From Anaerolineae bacterium (GTDB lineage: Bacteria > Chloroflexota > Anaerolineae > Aggregatilineales > Phototrophicaceae), in the NCBI GenBank assembly GCA_022841825.1, contig JALHQT010000002.1, positions 395,276 to 459,275 on the forward strand: 64,000 nucleotides of DNA. The letters run 5' to 3'. The notes below the pieces were generated by a model that saw only the letters and a program-made list of their open reading frames with translations, was not told where the DNA came from and did not search any database. Positions 4,426 to 14,594 of this stretch are shown piece after piece. Made by a program: the position numbers and the translations under genes. Numbering within the stretch: the first letter of the stretch is position 1; every line of letters starts with the position of its first letter.

Positions 4426-4910
4426 TTAGGAACCCTTGCCGCCGCGCTGGATTGCATAGCGGATGAGTTCGGCGTGGTTGTTAATGCCCAGTTTGCGCAT
4501 CAGGTTAGAGCGGTGTGACTCGACGGTGCGGATGCTGATGATCAGTGTCTCTGCGATCTCGGCGTTCGTGCGCCCCTCCGCCGCCAGGTGGAAGACCTGA
4601 CGCTCGCGCTGAGTCAGCAGCGCATAAGGATCGAGCTTAGTATCTCGATTACGTCGCTGATATGCCGCTACCCTCTCCTCCGAAAGCGGTGGGCTGAGGT
4701 AACGACGACCAGCGGCACATTCACGAATTGCCCGCAGAAGTTCGCTGCTGCTCGCGTCTTTGGGGACATAACCCAGCGCGCCGCTGGATAGCGCTTCCGC
4801 GACATAGGCATCGTTCATGTGCATCGACAGCACAATAACGCACACTTGTGGCTGGCGCTGCCGCACCTGGCGGATGACCTCTAAACCGTTCAGTCCGGAC
4901 ATCATCAGAT
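4426..4910 (-). CDS. NarL/FixJ response regulator, 3' exon (split by group II intron)
   Basis: This is the downstream exon of a response regulator interrupted by the intron at 4911-7365. It begins with the last two bases (AT) of the Asp54 codon and continues LMMSGLNGLEVIRQV. The rest of the receiver follows, including the conserved switch Ser in VLSMH and Lys in GYVPKDAS. The LuxR-type DNA-binding helix-turn-helix is LTQRERQVFHLAAEGRTNAEIA...TVESHRSNLMRKLGI. Joined to 7366-7525 it gives 645 bases, 214 residues plus stop, the usual NarL length. Without splicing, only a headless DNA-binding protein starting inside the intron could be made. The following 224 bases up to the receiver-like gene show no gene. 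Confidence 0.9.
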
Positions 4911-4971
4911 GTAGGGTAAGCGCCGTGCGCCGTGCTGTATCGCTACAGTCGGTTTCACTGCGCTCCCCCCC

Positions 4972-5005
4972 GAACCGGACGTACACGTTTCCATGTATCC
5001 GGCTC
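4972..5005 (-). other. Group II intron domain V
   Basis: On the minus strand this 34-base hairpin begins GAGCCGGATACATGGAAACG and closes with GTACGTCCGGTTC. It has the AGC near the base, a GAAA tetraloop and the two-base bulge expected of catalytic domain V. It lies just after the stop codon of the intron protein; domain VI and the 3' splice site follow at 4911-4970. Confidence 0.9.
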
Positions 5006-5013
5006 TCCAGTCT

Positions 5014-6825
5014 TCACTTGGCTTTCTGTCTCGTCGCTTCCGTGAGCTTTCCAGCGTGTAAGGCATAGTGACACGATTGGCATAGCACCATTGTTTTTCG
5101 CTGTTTACCAATCATGCGAATTTCCCACGCAGCCTTTCCCTTTAGGTCACGAAGTCGTCGGATATGATGAACTTCCATGAACCCTTCGGTTTTTCCGCAC
5201 CATTCACATTGGTTGGCATTCAGTCGCTGTCCCAATTCAGTTGGTAACCGGTATTGCCATGTTGTGGCTATCCGGTCAACATCTGTGTGCGTCACCTTTG
5301 CCCGCTTCAACTGACGAGTGGACGAAACCAAGCGATATATCTTGACTGTCCCATCGGGTTTGCGGTACTTCAGGTCGAAGGTATTTGGTGCTGTTTTCAG
5401 CGATTTGACGACTTTGTTGAGACTGCATCGCCGTTTGTTGGCGAGCGTTTTCAGGAAGCTGGTGGTGGTCAGCCATAGTACGTTACCAGCGACGTAGCTG
5501 AGATTGTCGGCTAGGGCATAGTAGTTTAGGAAACCCCGTGTTTCTGCGTTGTAGATAAGCAGGATTTCCAACTCACTGTGGCGGAGGACATGCGGACGGG
5601 TTTTTGCTTTCCATTTCTCGGCTGCACCATAGGTGCGTGTAAATTTCTGTACCTTGTCCCGAGGAATGAGTAGGCGTAGATGAAAGTTCGTTGTCCGTCG
5701 CGTTATCACGCCATATTTGACATTCCGTGTGCGCAGTATGCGGTTGCTTTGCCACCGTTGAACCTCGTAGCCTAGGAACCGTACTCGGTCTTTGGCGTTC
5801 GTGACTAGCGTCTTTTCTGCCGAGAGTTCCAAGCCCAGCTGCGTGTGGAGAAAATCTGTTAGCCAATCCTTGATTTGGTGTGCATCAGCTTTGCTTCCAT
5901 TCACCCCTATCAGGAAGTCATCCGCATAGCGGACATATTCCAGACGACGAAAGGTCGGGTCAAACGGGTCAGTGACTTCCATCTTTAGCTGTTGATGTTG
6001 GAGTGCCTTGAAGGTTGTCCAATTCCCACTAACCTTGGCTTGCGCTTTTGCCCTGCGTTTGTGTTGTTGTAAGCGGCGATATTCAGGACGTACTCGTCGC
6101 TCTTTTCCTCGGTTGAACTCGTGTTGTTTCTCTTGGATGGCACGGTCGAGTTCGTGGAGGTAAATGTTGGCGAGTAAGGGGCTGAGGTTGCCACCCTGCG
6201 GTGTTCCTGAGTAGGTGTCGTATTTCACACCCGCTTCAATGTAGCCTGCACTCAGAAATTGACCGATGAGGTGTAGAAACCGCTTGTCTGTAACGCGTTT
6301 CCCCAGAATGCCTAGCAGCGTATCATGTTGCAGGTGGTCAAAGAAGCCGTGAATGTCTCCTTCAACCCACCACCGAGTCCCTTTCATGACTTTGACCTGC
6401 TCAAGCGCCGTATGACAGCTTCGTCCCGGTCGGAAACCGTGTGAGTCGGGCGAAAATGTTGGTTCATAGATCGCTTCGAGCAAGAGCTTGACGACCGTTT
6501 GTAGCAACTTATCCTCGAACGAAGGAATGCCTAGAGGTCGGAAGCTGCCGTTTGCTTTTGGAATGTAGACACGCCGGACAGGATGAGGGGTGTAGCGCGC
6601 CGTTTGCAGCTCATCAATGAGTTTGTAAATGCGTGCTTTCCCCGTGCGGTCAATGGTCGTGCCGTCCACCCCTGCCGTCAAATTGCCAGGTTTGGGAGCG
6701 ATACGCTGATATGCCATAAGCCAAAGTTCGACGTTGTACAACTTTGGGAACAGCTTGTCGAACTTCACATCGGCTTTGCGAGCCATATTGCCAAGCATCG
6801 TCAGCAGAACAATTGGATTTTGCAC
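5014..6825 (-). CDS. ltrA: Group II intron reverse transcriptase/maturase with HNH endonuclease
   Basis: A 603-residue intron-encoded protein that helps the RNA fold and splice and can reverse-transcribe it into a target site. Residues about 60-370 form the reverse transcriptase: RRVYIPKANGSFRPLGIP, DIHGFFDHL, SGTPQGGNLSPLLANIYLHELD and the catalytic YADD near residue 302. A maturase (X/thumb) region follows at about 390-500. At the C-terminus an HNH zinc-endonuclease domain shows CEWCGK, VHHI and CQSCHYALHAG (about residues 540-590). All key residues are present with no frameshift, so the protein should be functional. The gene lies in domain IV of the intron, as is normal. The symbol follows the prototype of the family. 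Confidence 0.95.
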   Translation of the reverse strand: MQNPIVLLTMLGNMARKADVKFDKLFPKLYNVELWLMAYQRIAPKPGNLTAGVDGTTIDRTGKARIYKLIDELQTARYTPHPVRRVYIPKANGSFRPLGIPSFEDKLLQTVVKLLLEAIYEPTFSPDSHGFRPGRSCHTALEQVKVMKGTRWWVEGDIHGFFDHLQHDTLLGILGKRVTDKRFLHLIGQFLSAGYIEAGVKYDTYSGTPQGGNLSPLLANIYLHELDRAIQEKQHEFNRGKERRVRPEYRRLQQHKRRAKAQAKVSGNWTTFKALQHQQLKMEVTDPFDPTFRRLEYVRYADDFLIGVNGSKADAHQIKDWLTDFLHTQLGLELSAEKTLVTNAKDRVRFLGYEVQRWQSNRILRTRNVKYGVITRRTTNFHLRLLIPRDKVQKFTRTYGAAEKWKAKTRPHVLRHSELEILLIYNAETRGFLNYYALADNLSYVAGNVLWLTTTSFLKTLANKRRCSLNKVVKSLKTAPNTFDLKYRKPDGTVKIYRLVSSTRQLKRAKVTHTDVDRIATTWQYRLPTELGQRLNANQCEWCGKTEGFMEVHHIRRLRDLKGKAAWEIRMIGKQRKTMVLCQSCHYALHAGKLTEATRQKAK

Positions 6826-7120
6826 TTTGTGCGCCTTTCACTCCGCTTCTGATATGAAGACCTGCCTGCCTTCGCCATGTAGACGGCTTTCCCGTCCTCA
6901 GACTACTACGCAGGCTCCGTTGCCTCGTCTGATATTCAGGCGCAAACGCCATAGCGAAAATCGCATTCAGACAGGGGCAATCCCCGTTTAGACGTTAGTT
7001 CAGACCCTCTCGACTTAGGTGGCTCGTTCGAGGTTTCATCCCATCTACGTGGGCTGTGTCTCCTGAGCGGATATAGCTGTTTTCAACGACGCAACAGCCA
7101 TTCGGGAGAAAACAGGTATC

Positions 7121-7127
7121 ACCATCA
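7121..7127 (-). other. Candidate EBS1 of the group II intron
   Basis: The minus-strand sequence TGATGGT sits in the loop of a hairpin with stem AAACAGG/CCTGTTT (7110-7136). It can pair over seven positions, two of them G-U, with ATCATCG, the last bases of the 5' exon (7366-7372). That is the geometry expected of EBS1/IBS1 recognition and supports the splice-site assignment. Confidence 0.7.
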
Positions 7128-7365
7128 TGCCTGTTTGGGTCCTGTTGCCCCACTTGCCTCTGAGCTTCAAGCAATTCAGCTTTCACCATATCGAGATTGC
7201 TCTGAGAAACCTGACCACTTGATGGAGCTGTCATTTTCCCTTTTCACGCCGTGCTATGTTCCCCTCAGTGCTTTCGCTCGTCAGGTAAGGCGCTGAGCAA
7301 CTCCCATTTTCCGCAGGGAGTAGAGGTTTCCCTCCACTGAGACTAACGCCCTGTTACGGGCGCAC

Positions 7366-7525
7366 CGATGATCAGCACATCCGGCGTCAGACGTTCCACC
7401 AGACTGAGCGTGCTGATGCCGTCGCCCACATCGCCGATCACGTTCATATCCGGTTCAGCGTCGATAAGCTTCCGGACGCCTTCTCGCACCATCTGGTGAT
7501 CGTCGGCAAGGATAATGTTGAGCAC
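7366..7525 (-). CDS. NarL/FixJ response regulator, 5' exon (split by group II intron)
   Basis: The upstream exon encodes residues 1-53, MLNIILADDHQMVREGVRKL through PDVLII, with the acidic pair (ADDH) of a receiver domain. It ends with the first base G of codon 54. With the 3' exon at 4426-4910 the codon becomes GAT, the phospho-accepting aspartate, followed by LMMSGLNGLE. Translation without splicing would instead run a few codons into the intron and stop after GAPVTGR. The start is a GTG at 7525, five bases after the stop of the histidine kinase gene, so the pair is an operon and almost certainly a cognate two-component system. Confidence 0.9.
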
Positions 7526-7530
7526 AGCGT

Positions 7531-8967
7531 TTAGGCTCGGTTCACCTCGTTCAGAGGAATATGGATATTGATGAATGTTCCATTGCCCGGCGATGTTTCG
7601 ATGGTGCAGACTCCGCCGACCAGTCGAACACGTTCGAAAATGCCTGTCACGCCGTTGGTTTGGCGATTCGCCTGCAGCACGACATCCAGGTCAAAGCCCT
7701 TGCCCTGGTCTTCGATCTGGAGCTTGATCTCGTCCTCCACCCGAAGGCGGATGGCGGCGGTTTTGACGTCCGCGTGGCGCGCGATGTTGGTCAGCGCTTC
7801 CTGGGTGACGCGGTAGAGGGTTGTCTCTACGCAGCTTTCAAAGCGGCGATGTCCGCCCGACTCTCTGAAGTCGATGACGATGTTGGTCGCCTGGGTGAAG
7901 CGCGTCAGATGCCAGTCGAGCGTGGGCAGCAGCCCCAGGTCGTCCAGCATCGTCGGGCGCAGGTCGAGCGAGAGATCGCGCACACGCTGGATCAGATCGC
8001 CAATGATGTGCAGCGCTTGCGTGCGTCCTGCTTGTGGGCTATTCATGCTGCTGATGAGTAGATTGAGCACGGTGAGCGACTGCCCAATCTCGTCGTGCAG
8101 TTCGCGCGCGATGAGGCGGCGCTCGGCTTCCTGGGTTTCGACGAGCTGCTGCGACAATGCCGCCAGGCGTTGGCTTTGCTGTCGCAGTATCGTCTCGTCG
8201 TGTTTGCGCTGGCGGATATCACGGTTGATGCCGACCGCTCCAACCGGCTCGCCGTCTGCGCCCCGCACCAACGCGACAGACGACAGGATGTCGATGGGCG
8301 TGCCATCGCGCTGATACTGGATGACCTCGCCCTTCCAGAAGCCATCCCTGTAGAATTCCGCTACGACTTCATCCGGCGTGCTGTCCAGATAGCTCGTAGG
8401 GACAATCTCACTGAACAGTCGTCCGACGACTTCTTCGGCGGACCAACCGTAGGTCAACTCTGCGGCACGATTCCATGAACGGATGACGAAACTCAAGTCG
8501 GTGGAGATGACCGCATCGTTCGCCTGTTTGAGGATGGTCGCCAGATAGCGATCGTTTTCCTGCGCCTTGATCTGGTCCGTGATGTCGGTGATGGTCGCCA
8601 GTGCGATAAGACGCCCCTCGATCTGGCGTATGGTCGTGCGCACTTCGACATCCATGATGCTGCCATCTTTCAAGCGATGTTTCCACTTGCCCTGGTATTC
8701 TGTCGCCCCGTTGATGCTGCGCAAAATCTCCGTGAAACGGGCAACATCTGTCTGGGGGCGAATATCGGCGAGGTTCATCGCCAGGAACTCGTCACGGGTG
8801 TAGCCGTATTTGGCGACGGCGGCGGCGTTCACTTCGATGAAGCCCAGTGTCTGGATGTCAATCATCCACATCGGGTTGGGATTGGCATGGAACAGGAACG
8901 CGGAGTCAGAACCCACTGGGATTTCCGGCTCAAGTGAAAATGATTGGGGCAAGAGTGGGGGCTGCAA
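7531..8967 (-). CDS. PAS-PAS sensor histidine kinase (NarX/DegS class)
   Basis: A 478-residue soluble sensor kinase with no transmembrane segment. The first PAS domain spans about residues 15-130 (FLFHANPNPMWMID, then GYTRDEFL). The second spans about 140-255 (NDAVISTDL, GWSAEEVVGRLFSEI, and a PAC-type GINRDIRQRK end). A HisKA_3 dimerisation helix with the phosphorylated histidine follows in RRLIARELHDEIGQSL near residue 290. The HATPase domain has NIARHADVKTAAIRL, EDQGKGFD and GVTGIFERV. It should phosphorylate the regulator whose gene follows it and is split by the intron. The start at 8967 is a TTG without an obvious ribosome site, so the N-terminus is uncertain. Confidence 0.88.
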   Translation of the reverse strand: MQPPLLPQSFSLEPEIPVGSDSAFLFHANPNPMWMIDIQTLGFIEVNAAAVAKYGYTRDEFLAMNLADIRPQTDVARFTEILRSINGATEYQGKWKHRLKDGSIMDVEVRTTIRQIEGRLIALATITDITDQIKAQENDRYLATILKQANDAVISTDLSFVIRSWNRAAELTYGWSAEEVVGRLFSEIVPTSYLDSTPDEVVAEFYRDGFWKGEVIQYQRDGTPIDILSSVALVRGADGEPVGAVGINRDIRQRKHDETILRQQSQRLAALSQQLVETQEAERRLIARELHDEIGQSLTVLNLLISSMNSPQAGRTQALHIIGDLIQRVRDLSLDLRPTMLDDLGLLPTLDWHLTRFTQATNIVIDFRESGGHRRFESCVETTLYRVTQEALTNIARHADVKTAAIRLRVEDEIKLQIEDQGKGFDLDVVLQANRQTNGVTGIFERVRLVGGVCTIETSPGNGTFINIHIPLNEVNRA

Positions 8968-9031: not shown

Positions 9032-9104
9032 TGGACCTATGGGGATTCGAACCCCAGACCTCTTCAATGCCATTGAAGCGCTCTCCCAGCTGAGCTATAG
9101 GCCC
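9032..9104 (-). tRNA. tRNA-Ala (GGC)
   Basis: The minus strand folds as a 73-base cloverleaf. The acceptor stem GGGCCTA/TAGGTCC includes the G3-U70 pair that identifies alanine tRNAs. The D arm is GCTCAGCTGGGAGAGC. The anticodon arm CTTCA-ATGGCAT-TGAAG presents GGC. The T arm reads CTGGGGTTCGAATCCCCA. The discriminator base is A, and CCA is not encoded. It stands alone between the histidine kinase and the NrfD-type gene. Confidence 0.96.
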
Positions 9105-9169: not shown

Positions 9170-10456
9170 TCACTCCCCGTGCCCCTCTTCCTCGTACACC
9201 CGCTCGCCTGTACTCAGCGCGCGCGCTTCGGGATACAGCTTCAGCCAGCGCACCGCCAGCGTGAACGCCAGCCAGCTATAGGCGACGATGCCTAGCGAGA
9301 CGCCCCATTCGACGAGCGCGGGTTCGTAGTGGTTGACCGGGAAGACATCGCCCACGCCTGGCGACCAGTCGAGCGGGATGACGAAGCCGGAGAGCGTCAT
9401 GTTCCAGCGGTTGATGACCAGCCCGGCGATGACCATCGGCGCGGCGAGCAGCAGCGCGTAGCGGTTGCGGCGCAGCGGTCGCCACAGGAAGAAGATCGCC
9501 GGGACGAGTGCGCCGAACAGCACCTCGCCGAACCAGAAGGTGAAGTTGTAGGGCGTGAACTGCGCCAGGATCTCCAGCCCCAACTGCTGTTCCGGCACGC
9601 GCCCATAATAGTTGGTCGCCGCCCAGCTCCACAGCTTGAGGTAGAGATATGCCAGGCAGGCAAACCCGGCGAACTTCGCCACGCCTTCCAGCACGTCCAG
9701 CGGCACCATCTGCCGATTGAGCAGTCTGCCCGAAAGGATCGTGACGAACAGCGTCAGCGAGACGCCCGCCGCGATTGCCGAGAGGATGAACAGCACCGGG
9801 GCGGAGGGCGAGTACCAGAAGGGGCGCGCCGTCAGAATGCCATAGGTCGCGCCGAGCGATGATTGATGCAGCAGCGACAAACCCATGCCGAAGAGCGCCA
9901 CGATGGGCATCAGGCGGTGCAGGAAGTGCGAAAGATCGCGCAGCAGCTTGACGTTCTTGAGCGGCGTGCTTTCGACGATGACAGGCAGCAGCTCAATCAC
10001 CAGCACCGTCGAGTAGAGGATCACGCACATCGTGATCTCCCACAGGACGGAATGGACATTCCAGTAGAGGATCGGGTAGTAAAAGCGGTCGAAGCGCCCA
10101 ATATCGAGGAATAGCGCGATCATCGCCGACGAGTAGCCGAGCAAGCCGACCAGCACCGCCGCGCGCGCAATCGCTTCATAGCGCTTCAAGCCAAACAGGT
10201 AGACGGCGGCGGAGAGCGTGAACGCCCCTGCTCCCAAGCCAATCGACGACAGATCGACAGTGATCCACAAGCCCCAGGGCAGCTCGTCGCTCAGGTTGGT
10301 GACGCCCAAGCCGTTGATGATGACATGCACGGCGCTGACCACGCCGATCACCAGCATGACGACCAGCAGCATGATCCAGGCGACGAAATAGGGCGATGTT
10401 TTGCCGCGCGGCGCGGGCTGCGCCAGGGCGGGTTGGACACGGGTGTTGACAGCCAT
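9170..10456 (-). CDS. NrfD/HybB-type membrane quinone-interacting subunit
   Basis: A 428-residue polytopic membrane protein with about ten hydrophobic helices, of the NrfD/PsrC/HybB family. These subunits exchange electrons between membrane quinones and an iron-sulfur partner and may move protons. Visible family features are the opening helix followed by NLSDELPWGLWITVDLSSIGLGAGAF, then LFLDIGRFDRFYYP and WNVHSVLWEITMCVILY. The ATG abuts the stop of the ferredoxin gene at 10457, and the whole block 14594-9170 is compact and same-stranded. Its place beside two nonahaem cytochromes points to a quinone:cytochrome c oxidoreductase-like complex. The direction of electron flow cannot be told from sequence. 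Confidence 0.85.
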   Translation of the reverse strand: MAVNTRVQPALAQPAPRGKTSPYFVAWIMLLVVMLVIGVVSAVHVIINGLGVTNLSDELPWGLWITVDLSSIGLGAGAFTLSAAVYLFGLKRYEAIARAAVLVGLLGYSSAMIALFLDIGRFDRFYYPILYWNVHSVLWEITMCVILYSTVLVIELLPVIVESTPLKNVKLLRDLSHFLHRLMPIVALFGMGLSLLHQSSLGATYGILTARPFWYSPSAPVLFILSAIAAGVSLTLFVTILSGRLLNRQMVPLDVLEGVAKFAGFACLAYLYLKLWSWAATNYYGRVPEQQLGLEILAQFTPYNFTFWFGEVLFGALVPAIFFLWRPLRRNRYALLLAAPMVIAGLVINRWNMTLSGFVIPLDWSPGVGDVFPVNHYEPALVEWGVSLGIVAYSWLAFTLAVRWLKLYPEARALSTGERVYEEEGHGE

Positions 10457-11347
10457 TCAGATCAAGCCCTCCGGCGGGATATAGTACACGCTCGGATCGG
10501 TGCCCAGGTCTTCGCGCAGGCGCAGCGTCGGCGTGGTGTTGATGATGCGCGAGACGGTGCTGTTGGGATCGTTGATGTTGCCGAAGAAGCGCGCATTGAC
10601 CGGGCAGATGTTGACGCAGGCAGGCGTGGCTTCCTCATGGACGCCCGGCATTAGCCCCTTCGCCAGTCCCGCGTCGATGCGGTGGATGCAAAACGTGCAT
10701 TTTTCCGCGACCCCGCGCGGGCGGCGTTCGACTTCCGGCGTGCCCCATTCCGGCACACGCGGGTTGGTCTCGCTGCGTTCGCTGAAGTTGAAGGTGCGCG
10801 CGCCATACGGGCAGGCGGTCTGGCAGTATCGGCAGCCGATGCAGCGGTCATAATTCATGACGACCAGCCCGTCGGCGCGATGATAGGTCGCCCCCACCGG
10901 GCAGACCTCGACGCACGGCGCATGGTGGCAGTGCAGACACGGGCGCGTGACGTGGAAGGTGTTGCCGAGCTGCGTCTGGTCTTCGACGCGGATGTTCCAG
11001 CGCATATCGTCGGCGGTGTCGTTGGTCGCCTGGCACGCCCAGACGCAGTAATCGCAGCCGATGCACTTGCTCAGGTCGATCACCATCACCCAGCGATAGT
11101 TCGGGTCGCCTTCATGCGCGCCATCGACGCGCGCCTGCAAGATGTCCCGCGCGAAGGTGTCGAGCGGCTGCGCCAGTGTCGCCGCCAGCACCATGCTCGC
11201 GCCGCCGCCGATCAGCAGCGTCATGAAATCGCGTCGTGAGAGCAGATTGAGCTTCGGCGGCGTGGGCTGCACCGTGGTCGCCTGCTCGCCGTGTTCCCCA
11301 TCCCCATGCTGTGCAGGGGGCTGGGGCGTGTGATTGTCTTCGGTCAT
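10457..11347 (-). CDS. Tat-exported four-cluster ferredoxin subunit (HybA/NrfC type)
   Basis: A 296-residue iron-sulfur protein. A long hydrophilic N-terminus leads to the twin-arginine signal SRRDFM (near residue 38) and a hydrophobic stretch, so it is exported folded. Mature cysteine groups are CIGCDYCVWAC, CLHCHHAPCVEVCP, CIGCRYCQTACP, CTFC and CVNICP, enough for four [4Fe-4S] clusters. Proteins of this type wire a membrane NrfD partner to an extracytoplasmic redox subunit. Its start overlaps the stop of the upstream nonahaem cytochrome by four bases (ATGA), and its stop touches the NrfD start, so coupled translation is likely. Confidence 0.9.
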   Translation of the reverse strand: MTEDNHTPQPPAQHGDGEHGEQATTVQPTPPKLNLLSRRDFMTLLIGGGASMVLAATLAQPLDTFARDILQARVDGAHEGDPNYRWVMVIDLSKCIGCDYCVWACQATNDTADDMRWNIRVEDQTQLGNTFHVTRPCLHCHHAPCVEVCPVGATYHRADGLVVMNYDRCIGCRYCQTACPYGARTFNFSERSETNPRVPEWGTPEVERRPRGVAEKCTFCIHRIDAGLAKGLMPGVHEEATPACVNICPVNARFFGNINDPNSTVSRIINTTPTLRLREDLGTDPSVYYIPPEGLI

Positions 11348-12573
11348 GTACGGTCTCCCTCATCTGGCGCATCCGGTCGGGCAGGCTCTGTTGGCACTTC
11401 ATGTGCGGGTGGTTTCGTGGCTGGCGTCCCCATGCGCTGCGCCCGGTTGCCGCGCGCGATGAAGACTGCCGCGAAGGTGACGCCAAAGCCCAGCCCCAGG
11501 ATCAAGCCCTGGAACAACTGGATGCTGCCGACGCCTGCTGCGGCTTCCTGTGCTGCTGCTTCTTCCGAGAGCGGCACCGTTTCGACCGTTTCCGGCGCAG
11601 TCTCGGCGACGGGGCGGTCGGCGACCAACTGCGCCCATTCTCCGCTGGAGACCAACTCCTCATGACAGGTATTGCACGGCGTCGCATCCATCAGCATCGA
11701 GTGTCCGGTCGTCAGCGGCGCGGTCGAGATCGGGATCGCCTCACCGTCGCCGTGTTCGCCTCGGTACATGTGACAGCTCAGACACGTCACGTCCGAGTCT
11801 TCGGTCAGATGCTGTGTATGCACGAAGACTGCCTGCACTTCTTCCGGCTTGTGACAATTGGTGCAGAGTTCGTCCGGCGTATTGCCGACACGCAGGCGCT
11901 GGCTGTGCTGCGAATGACAGGTCACGCAGCCGAGCGGCTCAATATCGACATGGGCGCTGCCCTGCCATTCGACCAGCGTCGTCTGATGGCATTCGCCGCA
12001 TACCCCCGCGATCAGGTCGGGCTGTTCGACAATCGGGCGCACATCATGCGCGCCATGGCAATCGGTGCAGACGGCGGCTTCGCGGCTGCCCGCCTGGATT
12101 GCCTCCTCGTGCAAGCCGCTTTCCAGGTCACGCACGGCAGCCTCGTGACAGGTGGAGCAGATCGCCACCGAAGACAGCGTATAGGTGCGACCATCGGTCG
12201 GCGTGGGGCTGTTGTGTGGGAAGGCGTCCTGCCCATGACAATCGACGCAGCCGAAGGCTCCCTCGCTGTTATCGCTGCCATGCACCGACGCCGCGACGGT
12301 GTCCGGATCGACATACAGGTTCTGGATCGAGCCGTCTTCAAAGCGGACGGTCTTCCAGGGCTGGCTGTGACACACCAGACAGTAACTGTTGCTGCCCGTG
12401 ATCTCAACGCTGACGGTGGTGTCGCTGACGGTCGGCGTCGCTTCGACGGGGACAGGCGTGGCATCCTGCGCGGACACGCTGCCCGCGAACAGGAACGGCG
12501 AAAGTCCGGCGGCGATCAGGGTCAGCCCTACGCCGATCAGCGTGATGAGGGTGAGGTGTTTGCTATTCGTCAT
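11344..12573 (-). CDS. Membrane-anchored nonahaem cytochrome c
   Basis: A 409-residue protein with a signal peptide (residues 1-35, ending SVSAQ) and nine CxxCH haem c sites: CLVCH, CVDCH, CSTCH, CTDCH, CGECH, CVTCH, CTNCH, CLSCH, CNTCH. After an acidic linker a single transmembrane helix (IQLFQGLILGLGFGVTFAAVF, near residue 360) anchors it, followed by a short proline-rich cytoplasmic tail. It is probably the haem-wire subunit that joins the ferredoxin and NrfD subunits encoded next. The gene lies 12 bp after the second nonahaem cytochrome gene and overlaps the ferredoxin gene by four bases. Confidence 0.9.
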   Translation of the reverse strand: MTNSKHLTLITLIGVGLTLIAAGLSPFLFAGSVSAQDATPVPVEATPTVSDTTVSVEITGSNSYCLVCHSQPWKTVRFEDGSIQNLYVDPDTVAASVHGSDNSEGAFGCVDCHGQDAFPHNSPTPTDGRTYTLSSVAICSTCHEAAVRDLESGLHEEAIQAGSREAAVCTDCHGAHDVRPIVEQPDLIAGVCGECHQTTLVEWQGSAHVDIEPLGCVTCHSQHSQRLRVGNTPDELCTNCHKPEEVQAVFVHTQHLTEDSDVTCLSCHMYRGEHGDGEAIPISTAPLTTGHSMLMDATPCNTCHEELVSSGEWAQLVADRPVAETAPETVETVPLSEEAAAQEAAAGVGSIQLFQGLILGLGFGVTFAAVFIARGNRAQRMGTPATKPPAHEVPTEPARPDAPDEGDRT

Positions 12574-12585
12574 GGCGCGGCTCCA

Positions 12586-14187
12586 TCACCCGCCCTCGGC
12601 AGGGAATAAATTGAGTTCAGCGTACACGGCATCGAGAACGGCATCCGAGTAGGTGTAGTTGTGAATGCCCAGGCTGCCATCGCCCTCGACGAAATCGAGC
12701 GCCTGGCTCACCCATTCGGGCGTGCTGTCCGTGATGGCGGCGCGCGCTGCATCGATGCGCAACTGGGTATTCGACTGGATGTCGTCGATCAGCGCCTGCA
12801 TCAGTTCCGGCGAGGCGACTTCCTCATGACAGCCGGAGCAGTTGTCTTGCAGCATCGGCTCGCTGACGACGACGCCCGGCAGCAGCGGTGCCAGCGCATG
12901 GCTGTCGCGCATCCCGGCATCGACCGGGACGGCTGCCGCGTGACAGGTCGTACAGGTGGGTCCATCTTCGGCGATGAAATGCACGCCCGCTTCCGGAATG
13001 ATGCCGTCGATGACCGGCAGTCCTTCCCACATCTCCTGCGCGGGATGATGGATACCCGGCGCGACTTCGGGGTTGCTGTGGCAGCTCACGCACAGCGCGT
13101 ACGGCTCCTGCATCAGGTTAGCAGGCAGCTCGCTTTCGACATGCGGAAAGTGGCAGCTTGAACAGGTAATGCCATACTGCGCGCTCTCCAGCGTCACCGG
13201 CGGCGGGGCGGCGCTTTCGCGGTCACCTGCTTCGACCTCCGCCGTCAGCCGCGCGACATAGCTGCTGTCCGCGCTGTGGCAGGTCAGGCAGGTGTCGTCG
13301 GCGCCTTCGCTTTCCAGTAGGTTGCCCAGCGACCGCGCATGATCCGATGCGACCCACTCGTTGTACTGCATGTTCATCTGCCGCGCGTGCCCGCTCACCC
13401 ACCAGTGGTCCGCCTGATCCAGCCCGACGAGCGTGAAGCTGCCGCTCAGGTCGCCGCCGGGGAAGTAGCCGACCGGGTACGGGCGTCCGTCGGGGCTGAC
13501 GCCGCGACTGTGGCACTGCCCGCAGGTCTGCGGGTCAAGCGCGGGGTTGATCGCCGCGCGCACTTCTGCCAGCTCTTCCTCGCTGGCGCGCCGTCCGGCA
13601 TCCGACGCCAGTTCGACATGCGCTTCGCCGGGTCCGTGACAGCTTTCACACTGCACGCCATCGTCTTCCCAGCGCTCGCGCTCCAGGTCAAACCCGGTGA
13701 CATGGCAGTAGGCGCAGCTCTGTTCCCAGTCATATGCCGGGTCTTCCCAGGCGTCCGCCAGCGTCAGCGGTCGCCACGCCTGCGCGACGACGTCCCATTC
13801 GGCGGGCAGCACGCGGTAATCGTTGCGTCCCACCTCGTACAGATAACGCTGGACGTATTTGCCCGTCCCGACGACGTAAGCGATGTCGTCGGCGTCAAAC
13901 GCGCGGGCGGCGTCAGCACCGGGAAGCTGAACCTGGCGCACATCCTCACCCTGCGCGAAGTCCGCCAGGATGGCATCTTCGTCGTCGTCAAGCGTGAGGA
14001 CATGGCGCGAGTCATCGTGGCGGCGTGCGATGTCGCGGTGGCAGTCGGCGCACTCATTCGCGCCCACGTAATCGCCACCCGAAGGTTCGTCCTGGGCGAA
14101 GGCGGGAGCGCTGCCCAACCACAGCAGGCTGAACCCGCTGGCGAGGCAGAGGATGCCGATCAGGACGAGAGTGCGAAGCCTTGTCAT
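12586..14187 (-). CDS. Secreted nonahaem cytochrome c
   Basis: A 533-residue exported protein. ATG at 14187 was chosen because it opens a classical signal peptide (MTRLRTLVLIGILCLASGFS ... APAFAQ) and overlaps the preceding stop as ATGA; upstream in-frame codons do not look like protein. Nine haem sites are visible: CADCH, CAYCH, CESCH, CGQCH, CLTCH, CSSCH, CVSCH, CTTCH, CSGCH. Several spaced histidines (HARQMNMQYNEW, SDHARSLG, GIHHP) could be distal ligands. The segment with CAYCH, ESCHGPGEAHVE and CGQCHSRG resembles the cytochrome c family related to hydroxylamine and octahaem proteins. It may accept or donate electrons outside the membrane for the NrfD complex. Confidence 0.88.
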   Translation of the reverse strand: MTRLRTLVLIGILCLASGFSLLWLGSAPAFAQDEPSGGDYVGANECADCHRDIARRHDDSRHVLTLDDDEDAILADFAQGEDVRQVQLPGADAARAFDADDIAYVVGTGKYVQRYLYEVGRNDYRVLPAEWDVVAQAWRPLTLADAWEDPAYDWEQSCAYCHVTGFDLERERWEDDGVQCESCHGPGEAHVELASDAGRRASEEELAEVRAAINPALDPQTCGQCHSRGVSPDGRPYPVGYFPGGDLSGSFTLVGLDQADHWWVSGHARQMNMQYNEWVASDHARSLGNLLESEGADDTCLTCHSADSSYVARLTAEVEAGDRESAAPPPVTLESAQYGITCSSCHFPHVESELPANLMQEPYALCVSCHSNPEVAPGIHHPAQEMWEGLPVIDGIIPEAGVHFIAEDGPTCTTCHAAAVPVDAGMRDSHALAPLLPGVVVSEPMLQDNCSGCHEEVASPELMQALIDDIQSNTQLRIDAARAAITDSTPEWVSQALDFVEGDGSLGIHNYTYSDAVLDAVYAELNLFPAEGG

Positions 14188-14594
14188 GGCAGTGTCTCTT
14201 CTTTGCTGACCGCAAGGGTAAAGGATTGGGAGAAGGTATCGTCGAGCCAGGCATCTGCTGCGTCTGAGGCTGCATAGCCCAGCCTGCGCAGCGCCATGCT
14301 GTCCACGTTGGAGCCGACCGGGAGGGCACTGTTGGTGCCGACAATGTCGGGCTGCGGGTTGAGCACGAGGTTGTCGATGACACGCGGATGAAGCGGTCTC
14401 GACCACTCGAATTCCAGGTCGTCATGGCAGGTGTAGCACGAGGCAGCGCCCACGTAGACCGCGCTCGAATGGTCAGGGACGTCGGCGTGCAGCTCCTGCG
14501 CGATCGCAGGGAGGGATGCTATGAAGAGCCAGAACGCCCCCACCAGACACGAGCTAAAGCCAAACAACGACAGGATTTTGTGCGCAGACCGCAT
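14184..14594 (-). CDS. Small secreted monohaem cytochrome c
   Basis: A 136-residue protein with a signal peptide and one haem site, CYTCH, in VYVGAASCYTCHDDLEFEW. The remainder has no known domain; WSRPLHPRVIDN and paired hydrophobic patches suggest a docking role. ATG at 14594 is chosen because GAGGGAAGG stands four bases before it; an in-frame TTG lies five codons upstream. It is the first gene of the cytochrome/ferredoxin/NrfD operon and overlaps the next start. The 125 bases between it and the upstream response-regulator gene should carry the operon promoter, but I could not pick one confidently. Confidence 0.78.
   Translation of the reverse strand: MRSAHKILSLFGFSSCLVGAFWLFIASLPAIAQELHADVPDHSSAVYVGAASCYTCHDDLEFEWSRPLHPRVIDNLVLNPQPDIVGTNSALPVGSNVDSMALRRLGYAASDAADAWLDDTFSQSFTLAVSKEETLP

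Follow-up and report, generated by a model that had tools for sequence, protein, structure and literature searches.

A complete group II intron interrupts the phospho-aspartate codon of a two-component response regulator gene in an Anaerolineae bacterium (assembly GCA_022841825.1). We consider it probable that this IIA-like intron belongs to a type that homes to ThiF genes, that it entered the regulator off target, and that it splices out with its maturase, unspliced RNA yielding a 60-residue fragment. Off-target insertion of a ThiF-codon intron, tolerated if spliced, is the likeliest of the explanations weighed below. It builds on the anatomy of the intron, the frame restored by joining its exons, the fit of its EBS1 to ThiF sites, and a matching intron end at the ThiF codon of another genus. 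Positions refer to the window, the whole 64,000-nucleotide stretch analysed (contig JALHQT010000002.1, positions 395,276 to 459,275).

A group II intron in a response regulator gene

The intron spans 2455 nt on the minus strand (7365 to 4911). Its ends, GTGCG...CTAC, satisfy the GUGYG/AY rule, its exons join in frame, and a second copy in the same genome has identical ends. Domains V and VI (4911 to 5007, minus strand) match Rfam model RF00029 with 60.9 bits (E = 1.7e-9; gathering threshold 40), and the fold of 4911-5010 has a z-score of -5.69, equalled by none of 200 shuffles. The intron-encoded protein (IEP; 5014 to 6825, minus strand; 603 aa) contains reverse transcriptase (RVT_1, 7.2e-37) and maturase (Intron_maturas2, 1.1e-8) domains that exceed the Pfam cut-off, an AI2M-like HNH domain (2e-21), and a YADD motif at residue 300; against the NCBIfam model for group II RT/maturases (TIGR04416) it scores 291.2 bits, slightly below the cut-off of 300. 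An initial annotation, whose stretch of 4911-7525 comprises exon 1 plus the intron, had proposed a group II intron with an intact RT/maturase/HNH protein. The first proposal is borne out by the ends, domains V and VI and their fold, and the second by the Pfam domains and the YADD motif.

The closest solved chain to the IEP is LtrA, with 439.1 bits over residues 12-590 (the next scores 157.5). Ll.LtrB of Lactococcus lactis is a group IIA intron of the ML class. Compared at the level of the IEP, it resembles the window intron in encoding a protein with RT, maturase and HNH domains, and it differs in its gene and insertion site, one copy here lying in a signalling gene.

Exon 1 (7366 to 7525, minus strand) supplies codons 1-53 of the regulator and the G of codon 54, and exon 2 (4426 to 4910, minus strand) supplies the AT of codon 54, the remainder of the receiver, a GerE helix-turn-helix and the stop. 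The GTG start at 7525 is an inferred choice, since the frame stays open farther upstream. Joined at 7366|4910, the exons encode a 214-residue receiver and GerE protein in which codon 54 is G|AT (Asp54). Directly upstream lies a histidine kinase gene (7531 to 8967, minus strand; 478 aa) with two PAS domains, HisKA_3 and HATPase_c according to Pfam, and in all eight loci checked of the 29 fetched a related kinase gene lies no more than 1.5 kb from the regulator homologue. A receiver with a phospho-Asp, a GerE helix-turn-helix and an adjoining HisKA_3 kinase mark the gene as a NarL/LuxR-type response regulator. When the intron is retained, the frame reads VLIIGAPVTGR and stops, giving 60 residues without Asp54. 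At the level of sequence, then, three earlier claims hold: a junction within the phospho-Asp codon, a normal 214-residue NarL-type protein from the joined exons, and an unspliced product that has lost the phosphorylation site.

The insertion may be recent, as the initial annotation suggested, although the nearest homologue of the regulator among the 61 genomes searched, at 58% identity, is too distant to date it. The search of the genome itself revealed no close paralogue: among the 50 candidates scored out of 126, the next matches (E <= 1e-40) share 39% and 35% identity. Given an unspliced product that lacks the phospho-Asp, and no close paralogue among those candidates, splicing would be required for a working regulator, and signalling would depend on it if the regulator gene works. 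We looked for the intron at homologous regulator sites, as had been proposed, and none of the 29 homologues examined carries one at the phospho-Asp codon; the search is biased towards continuous frames, the form in which most of them were recovered. The exon 2 frame is open back to the IEP stop (4986-5016, minus strand), so that a restart in unspliced RNA could yield a helix-turn-helix fragment without Asp54. Upstream of the kinase are a tRNA gene (9032-9104, minus strand) and open reading frames (9170-14406, minus strand) that read by eye like an NrfD-type membrane protein, a 4Fe-4S protein and multihaem cytochromes.

Exon recognition by EBS1 and EBS2

EBS1, CGTTGA (7083 to 7088, minus strand; intron nt 278-283), forms five of six pairs with exon positions -6 to -1 (TCATCG), the exception being a T-T mismatch at -3. 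The T preceding EBS1, a would-be delta nucleotide, stands opposite the +1 A in the window copy, which bears on assignment to subclass IIA. The proposed EBS2, CAGGAC (7139 to 7144, minus strand; intron nt 222-227), also forms five of six pairs, with exon positions -13 to -8 (GTGCTG); its register is uncertain, and our script preferred a different 6-mer within the same loop.

These elements were placed using 12 related introns with a known 5′ exon (13 were aligned; L103, which duplicates L101, was omitted). Between the loop at intron nt 266-292 and the intron's own IBS1, a mean of 5.5 of 6 positions pair, as compared with 4.69 (sd 0.19) for swapped exons, and none of 5000 swaps reached 5.5. For the stretch at 210-232 and its own IBS2 the mean is 5.58, against 5.09 (sd 0.16) for swapped exons, with 4 of 5000 swaps reaching 5.58; this scoring allowed three offsets, and the script chose other 6-mers for both copies of the source genome. 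In five introns (L002, L086, L092, L093 and L099) the best EBS1 6-mer found by the script differs from the register read by eye. The initial annotation had described an EBS1 loop that pairs with the exon. Its loop is upheld by the placement from 12 introns, and the pairing needs the qualification that it extends to five of six positions, with the T-T mismatch at -3. A competing EBS1 candidate, a hairpin at intron nt 231-257 that matches the 5′ exon in two 7-bp stretches, was rejected because its loop is nearly constant among relatives with differing exons.

A probable home site in ThiF genes

The second copy (L002:963-3415, contig C1) is 96.3% identical to the window copy and lies inside a ThiF-family gene, where it splits the Asp codon of LLIN|D (G|AC, phase 1). 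A search of the genome with the 5′ 520 nt of the intron found two places only, the regulator and ThiF. The host gene matches Pfam ThiF with 43.3 bits, exceeding the cut-off. The interrupted frame scores 96.7 bits against TIGR03736 (PRTRC_ThiF; cut-off 144.75), and its neighbour 62.1 bits against PRTRC_B (cut-off 131.45); because both scores fall under their cut-offs, we use "PRTRC-type" to denote a resemblance.

The EBS1 of the window copy forms six of six pairs with the resident ThiF site, as compared with five at its own regulator exon. Among the matches listed, 30 loci were fetched and 28 intron-less ThiF sites obtained, after exclusion of the interrupted gene itself and of one match ending before the site. 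At least five EBS1 pairs form at all 28 sites and all six at 21, whereas six pairs occur at 0.5% of 210,524 background positions; being homologues, the ThiF sites do not count as independent cases. EBS2 gives no general preference for ThiF. The window EBS2 forms five of six pairs at the regulator, four at the resident ThiF site and three at the ThiF site of G049, a genome from another genus. At the 28 intron-less sites listed, it forms three or four pairs at 23, five at two and six at three, and at two ThiF sites (L129 and L131) all positions of EBS1 and of EBS2 are paired.

In G049, the match to ThiF ends at residue 212 and is followed by GTGCGCCCGTAACAGG, placing an intron end at the same codon as that occupied by the resident ThiF intron. 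The assembled part of this intron, 79 nt long, runs to the end of the contig; its sole difference from the window copy is one gap, as against seven mismatches with the resident ThiF copy. Because this part is nearer to the window copy, the intron in the regulator appears to belong to a lineage that occupies the ThiF codon, and it probably does not derive from the resident ThiF intron in its present form. In a further genome (G061; L181:1-120 and L182:1-120), two ThiF fragments are flanked by repeats of a TCTCAAAGTGGCTGCTC-like motif.

The two copies differ at 91 alignment columns, and their flanks are different. Differences are concentrated at the 5′ end (42 of 308 columns, as compared with 49 of 2148 elsewhere; Fisher p = 6e-16, with the 308-column boundary picked after inspection of the data), and the 5′ 308 nt of the ThiF copy are six times more diverged from the window copy than is the remainder. 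Over the first 480 columns, within domain I, 8 base pairs are changed on both sides, 7 on one side, none is broken and 125 are unchanged, in a structure predicted from the two copies themselves; random placement of the differences gave a mean of 0.9 two-sided changes and at most 6 in 10,000 trials. Over 46 differing columns, 2 of which are a cut-end artefact, outgroups share the state of the regulator copy at 27 and that of the ThiF copy at 11, and 8 are ties. The IEP genes are separated by a dS of 0.073, with a dN/dS of 0.16. The concentration of differences, the paired changes and the outgroup split make the 5′ part of the ThiF copy look like a mosaic or a fast-changing half; a mosaic may perhaps stem from template switching or recombination with another intron.

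Target choice at the phospho-Asp codon

We used the fit of the window copy, at least five of six pairs for both EBS1 and EBS2, as a measure of target quality. It is matched by 0.13% of background positions and by the phospho-Asp codon of 2 of 29 regulator homologues, which suggests that phospho-Asp codons are above-average targets by chance of sequence. DNA for a β-strand followed by Asp resembles DNA for LLIND, and this would explain why a phospho-Asp codon was hit.

The genome contains 78 places with at most one mismatch to GTSCTGATCAWCGA, the interrupted window site included. Six of these were read, namely the four exact matches and two places that differ at a single position. The exact 14-nt sites (all GTGCTGATCATCGA) are empty and encode VLII|D, in genes that look, by eye and from their frames alone, like an ABC ATPase, RadA, a pyridine-nucleotide/FAD enzyme and a membrane protein. 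The idea that the intron hunts response regulators was rejected, as these other exact 14-mers are empty and not regulator-like.

Relatives of the intron also lie in seemingly conserved motifs: after GQMGVGK (L005), NPPYDHD (L009), NPPYDYD (L016), LGRDPEMR (L051 and L053) and GCGGTGS (L062). Pfam was applied to 10 exon pairs, of which six gave matches above the cut-off, two below it only (L005 and L014) and two none (L013 and L075). The families above the cut-off are ThiF (the second copy and L062), Helicase_C (L006 and L063), a DUF6094 methyltransferase (L009) and SSB (L051); the exons of L016 and L053 were assigned by likeness. The regulator insertion itself points to a possible reason for hits on catalytic codons by introns of this kind, as conserved "β-strand then Asp" motifs share the DNA of the home target.

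We propose that the intron is at home in the LLIN|D codon of ThiF genes of the PRTRC type, carried on what appear to be mobile elements of Anaerolineae. From there it would have entered a chromosomal two-component regulator by off-target reverse splicing, directed to the site by incomplete pairing of EBS1 and of EBS2, with the phospho-Asp codon being hit since a hydrophobic β-strand followed by Asp is encoded by DNA much like that of the home site. Excision by the intron and its maturase would restore a normal regulator, probably less efficiently than at the home site, and RNA left unspliced would give the 60-residue fragment. The off-target reading is preferred because EBS1 fits ThiF better and because the ThiF codon of another genus holds a near-identical intron end. 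The completeness of the intron and its protein, the lack of broken pairs in domain I and the dN/dS of 0.16 between the IEP genes also speak for this account. Two observations run counter to it: EBS2 pairs better at the regulator than at most ThiF sites, and the EBS1 of the resident ThiF copy (CGTTCT) forms only four of six pairs with its own exon. If the off-target reading is correct, the passage of an intron from a mobile element into a signalling gene of the chromosome can be traced here, and the retained match of EBS1 to the likely home site should make it possible to measure what splicing from mismatched exons costs.

Alternative explanations

The regulator may instead be decaying or silenced, with the intron having settled in a gene under little selection. 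The residue at Asp+4, a few nucleotides downstream of the intron, is Ser (TCC; 4897-4899, minus strand), as compared with Pro in 29 of 29 homologues, and the EBS1 mismatch may weaken splicing. We nonetheless think such decay unlikely, as both exon frames are open with their domains intact and the root-to-tip depth of the regulator, 1.01, falls within the homologue range of 0.72-1.18.

Ordinary retrohoming, following drift of the EBS sequences towards the regulator site, is an alternative to off-target insertion. PMC2882425 describes introns of Thermosynechococcus elongatus which, like those here, occur as copies with differing EBS sequences at different sites, and which belong to the CL/IIB class; here there are two copies, in coding genes. 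There, new sites are said to be reached chiefly through changes in the EBS, and sites with at most one mismatch are interpreted as retrohoming. With one mismatch each in EBS1 and EBS2, the window site is near retrohoming and a borderline case by that measure, and EBS2 favours the regulator over most of the ThiF sites among the matches listed. Against this, EBS1 is fully matched at ThiF, which is also where the closest known intron 5′ end is found, and we regard drift followed by retrohoming as improbable.

A third alternative is that the intron acts as a regulatory switch, with condition-dependent splicing gating a phosphorylatable regulator. Such a regulator would be made only after excision; otherwise there would be none, or a short DNA-binding form restarted past the IEP gene. 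The split codon is indeed that of the phospho-Asp, the scored candidates include no close paralogue, and exon 2 is open to the IEP stop, from which a restart could give a short helix-turn-helix form. According to PMC6003770, Ll.LtrB interrupts a coding gene that belongs to a mobile element and reduces expression of this host gene; regulatory roles are speculated upon there, and housekeeping genes are said to be seldom interrupted by introns of this kind. On the other side, EBS1 fits the ThiF site better, and the codon is free of introns in all 29 regulator homologues, in a search that favours continuous frames. The suggestion in the initial annotation that the intron is tolerated as a switch finds no support in the better fit to ThiF, the ThiF-codon intron in another genus, or the four other 14-mers, which are not in regulators. 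We consider both the conditional gate and its short restarted form very improbable, and unless splicing proves regulated the position of the intron is a curiosity.

An assembly artefact, in which the intron is not truly in the regulator gene, is scarcely credible: a 21-contig assembly does hold two near-identical introns, but the exons at both ends join in frame as one conserved protein, the copies differ at 91 columns and in their flanks, and the regulator contig is 907 kb long.

Relatives and distribution

A group II intron in a conserved cellular gene has a precedent in recA of Geobacillus kaustophilus, a different gene (a title cited in PMC4424553). Our search of literature on group II introns and response regulators, in part-texts, found no response regulator with an intron, weak evidence that no such case has been published; none is described in the available part of PMC9235467.

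Relatives of the IEP that are about 56-62% identical over most of its length come from Chloroflexota records and one doubtful metagenome-assembled genome (L103). A fragmentary match in a further Chloroflexota record (L112) reaches 68% in its best segment. Spread to other phyla was considered and set aside, as L103, a Melainabacteria genome, shares both flank and intron with L101, a Chloroflexi genome, and a binning error is likely. Plasmid records gave 591 matches, all less than 60% identical, and viral contigs gave nine relatives at 34-42%.

Scanning 60 loci for intron ends identified both ends in 33, including both copies of the source genome, with patterns that favour a GTGCGC start, so that some introns were missed. 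At 25 of these 33, at least 35 open codons flank the intron on each side in one phase. The other eight (L010, L012, L057, L058, L061, L073, L074 and L084) lack such frames; L012 stops at a contig end. In three loci (L067, L086 and L081), introns of this wider family appear by eye to be nested in open reading frames resembling other group II reverse transcriptases.
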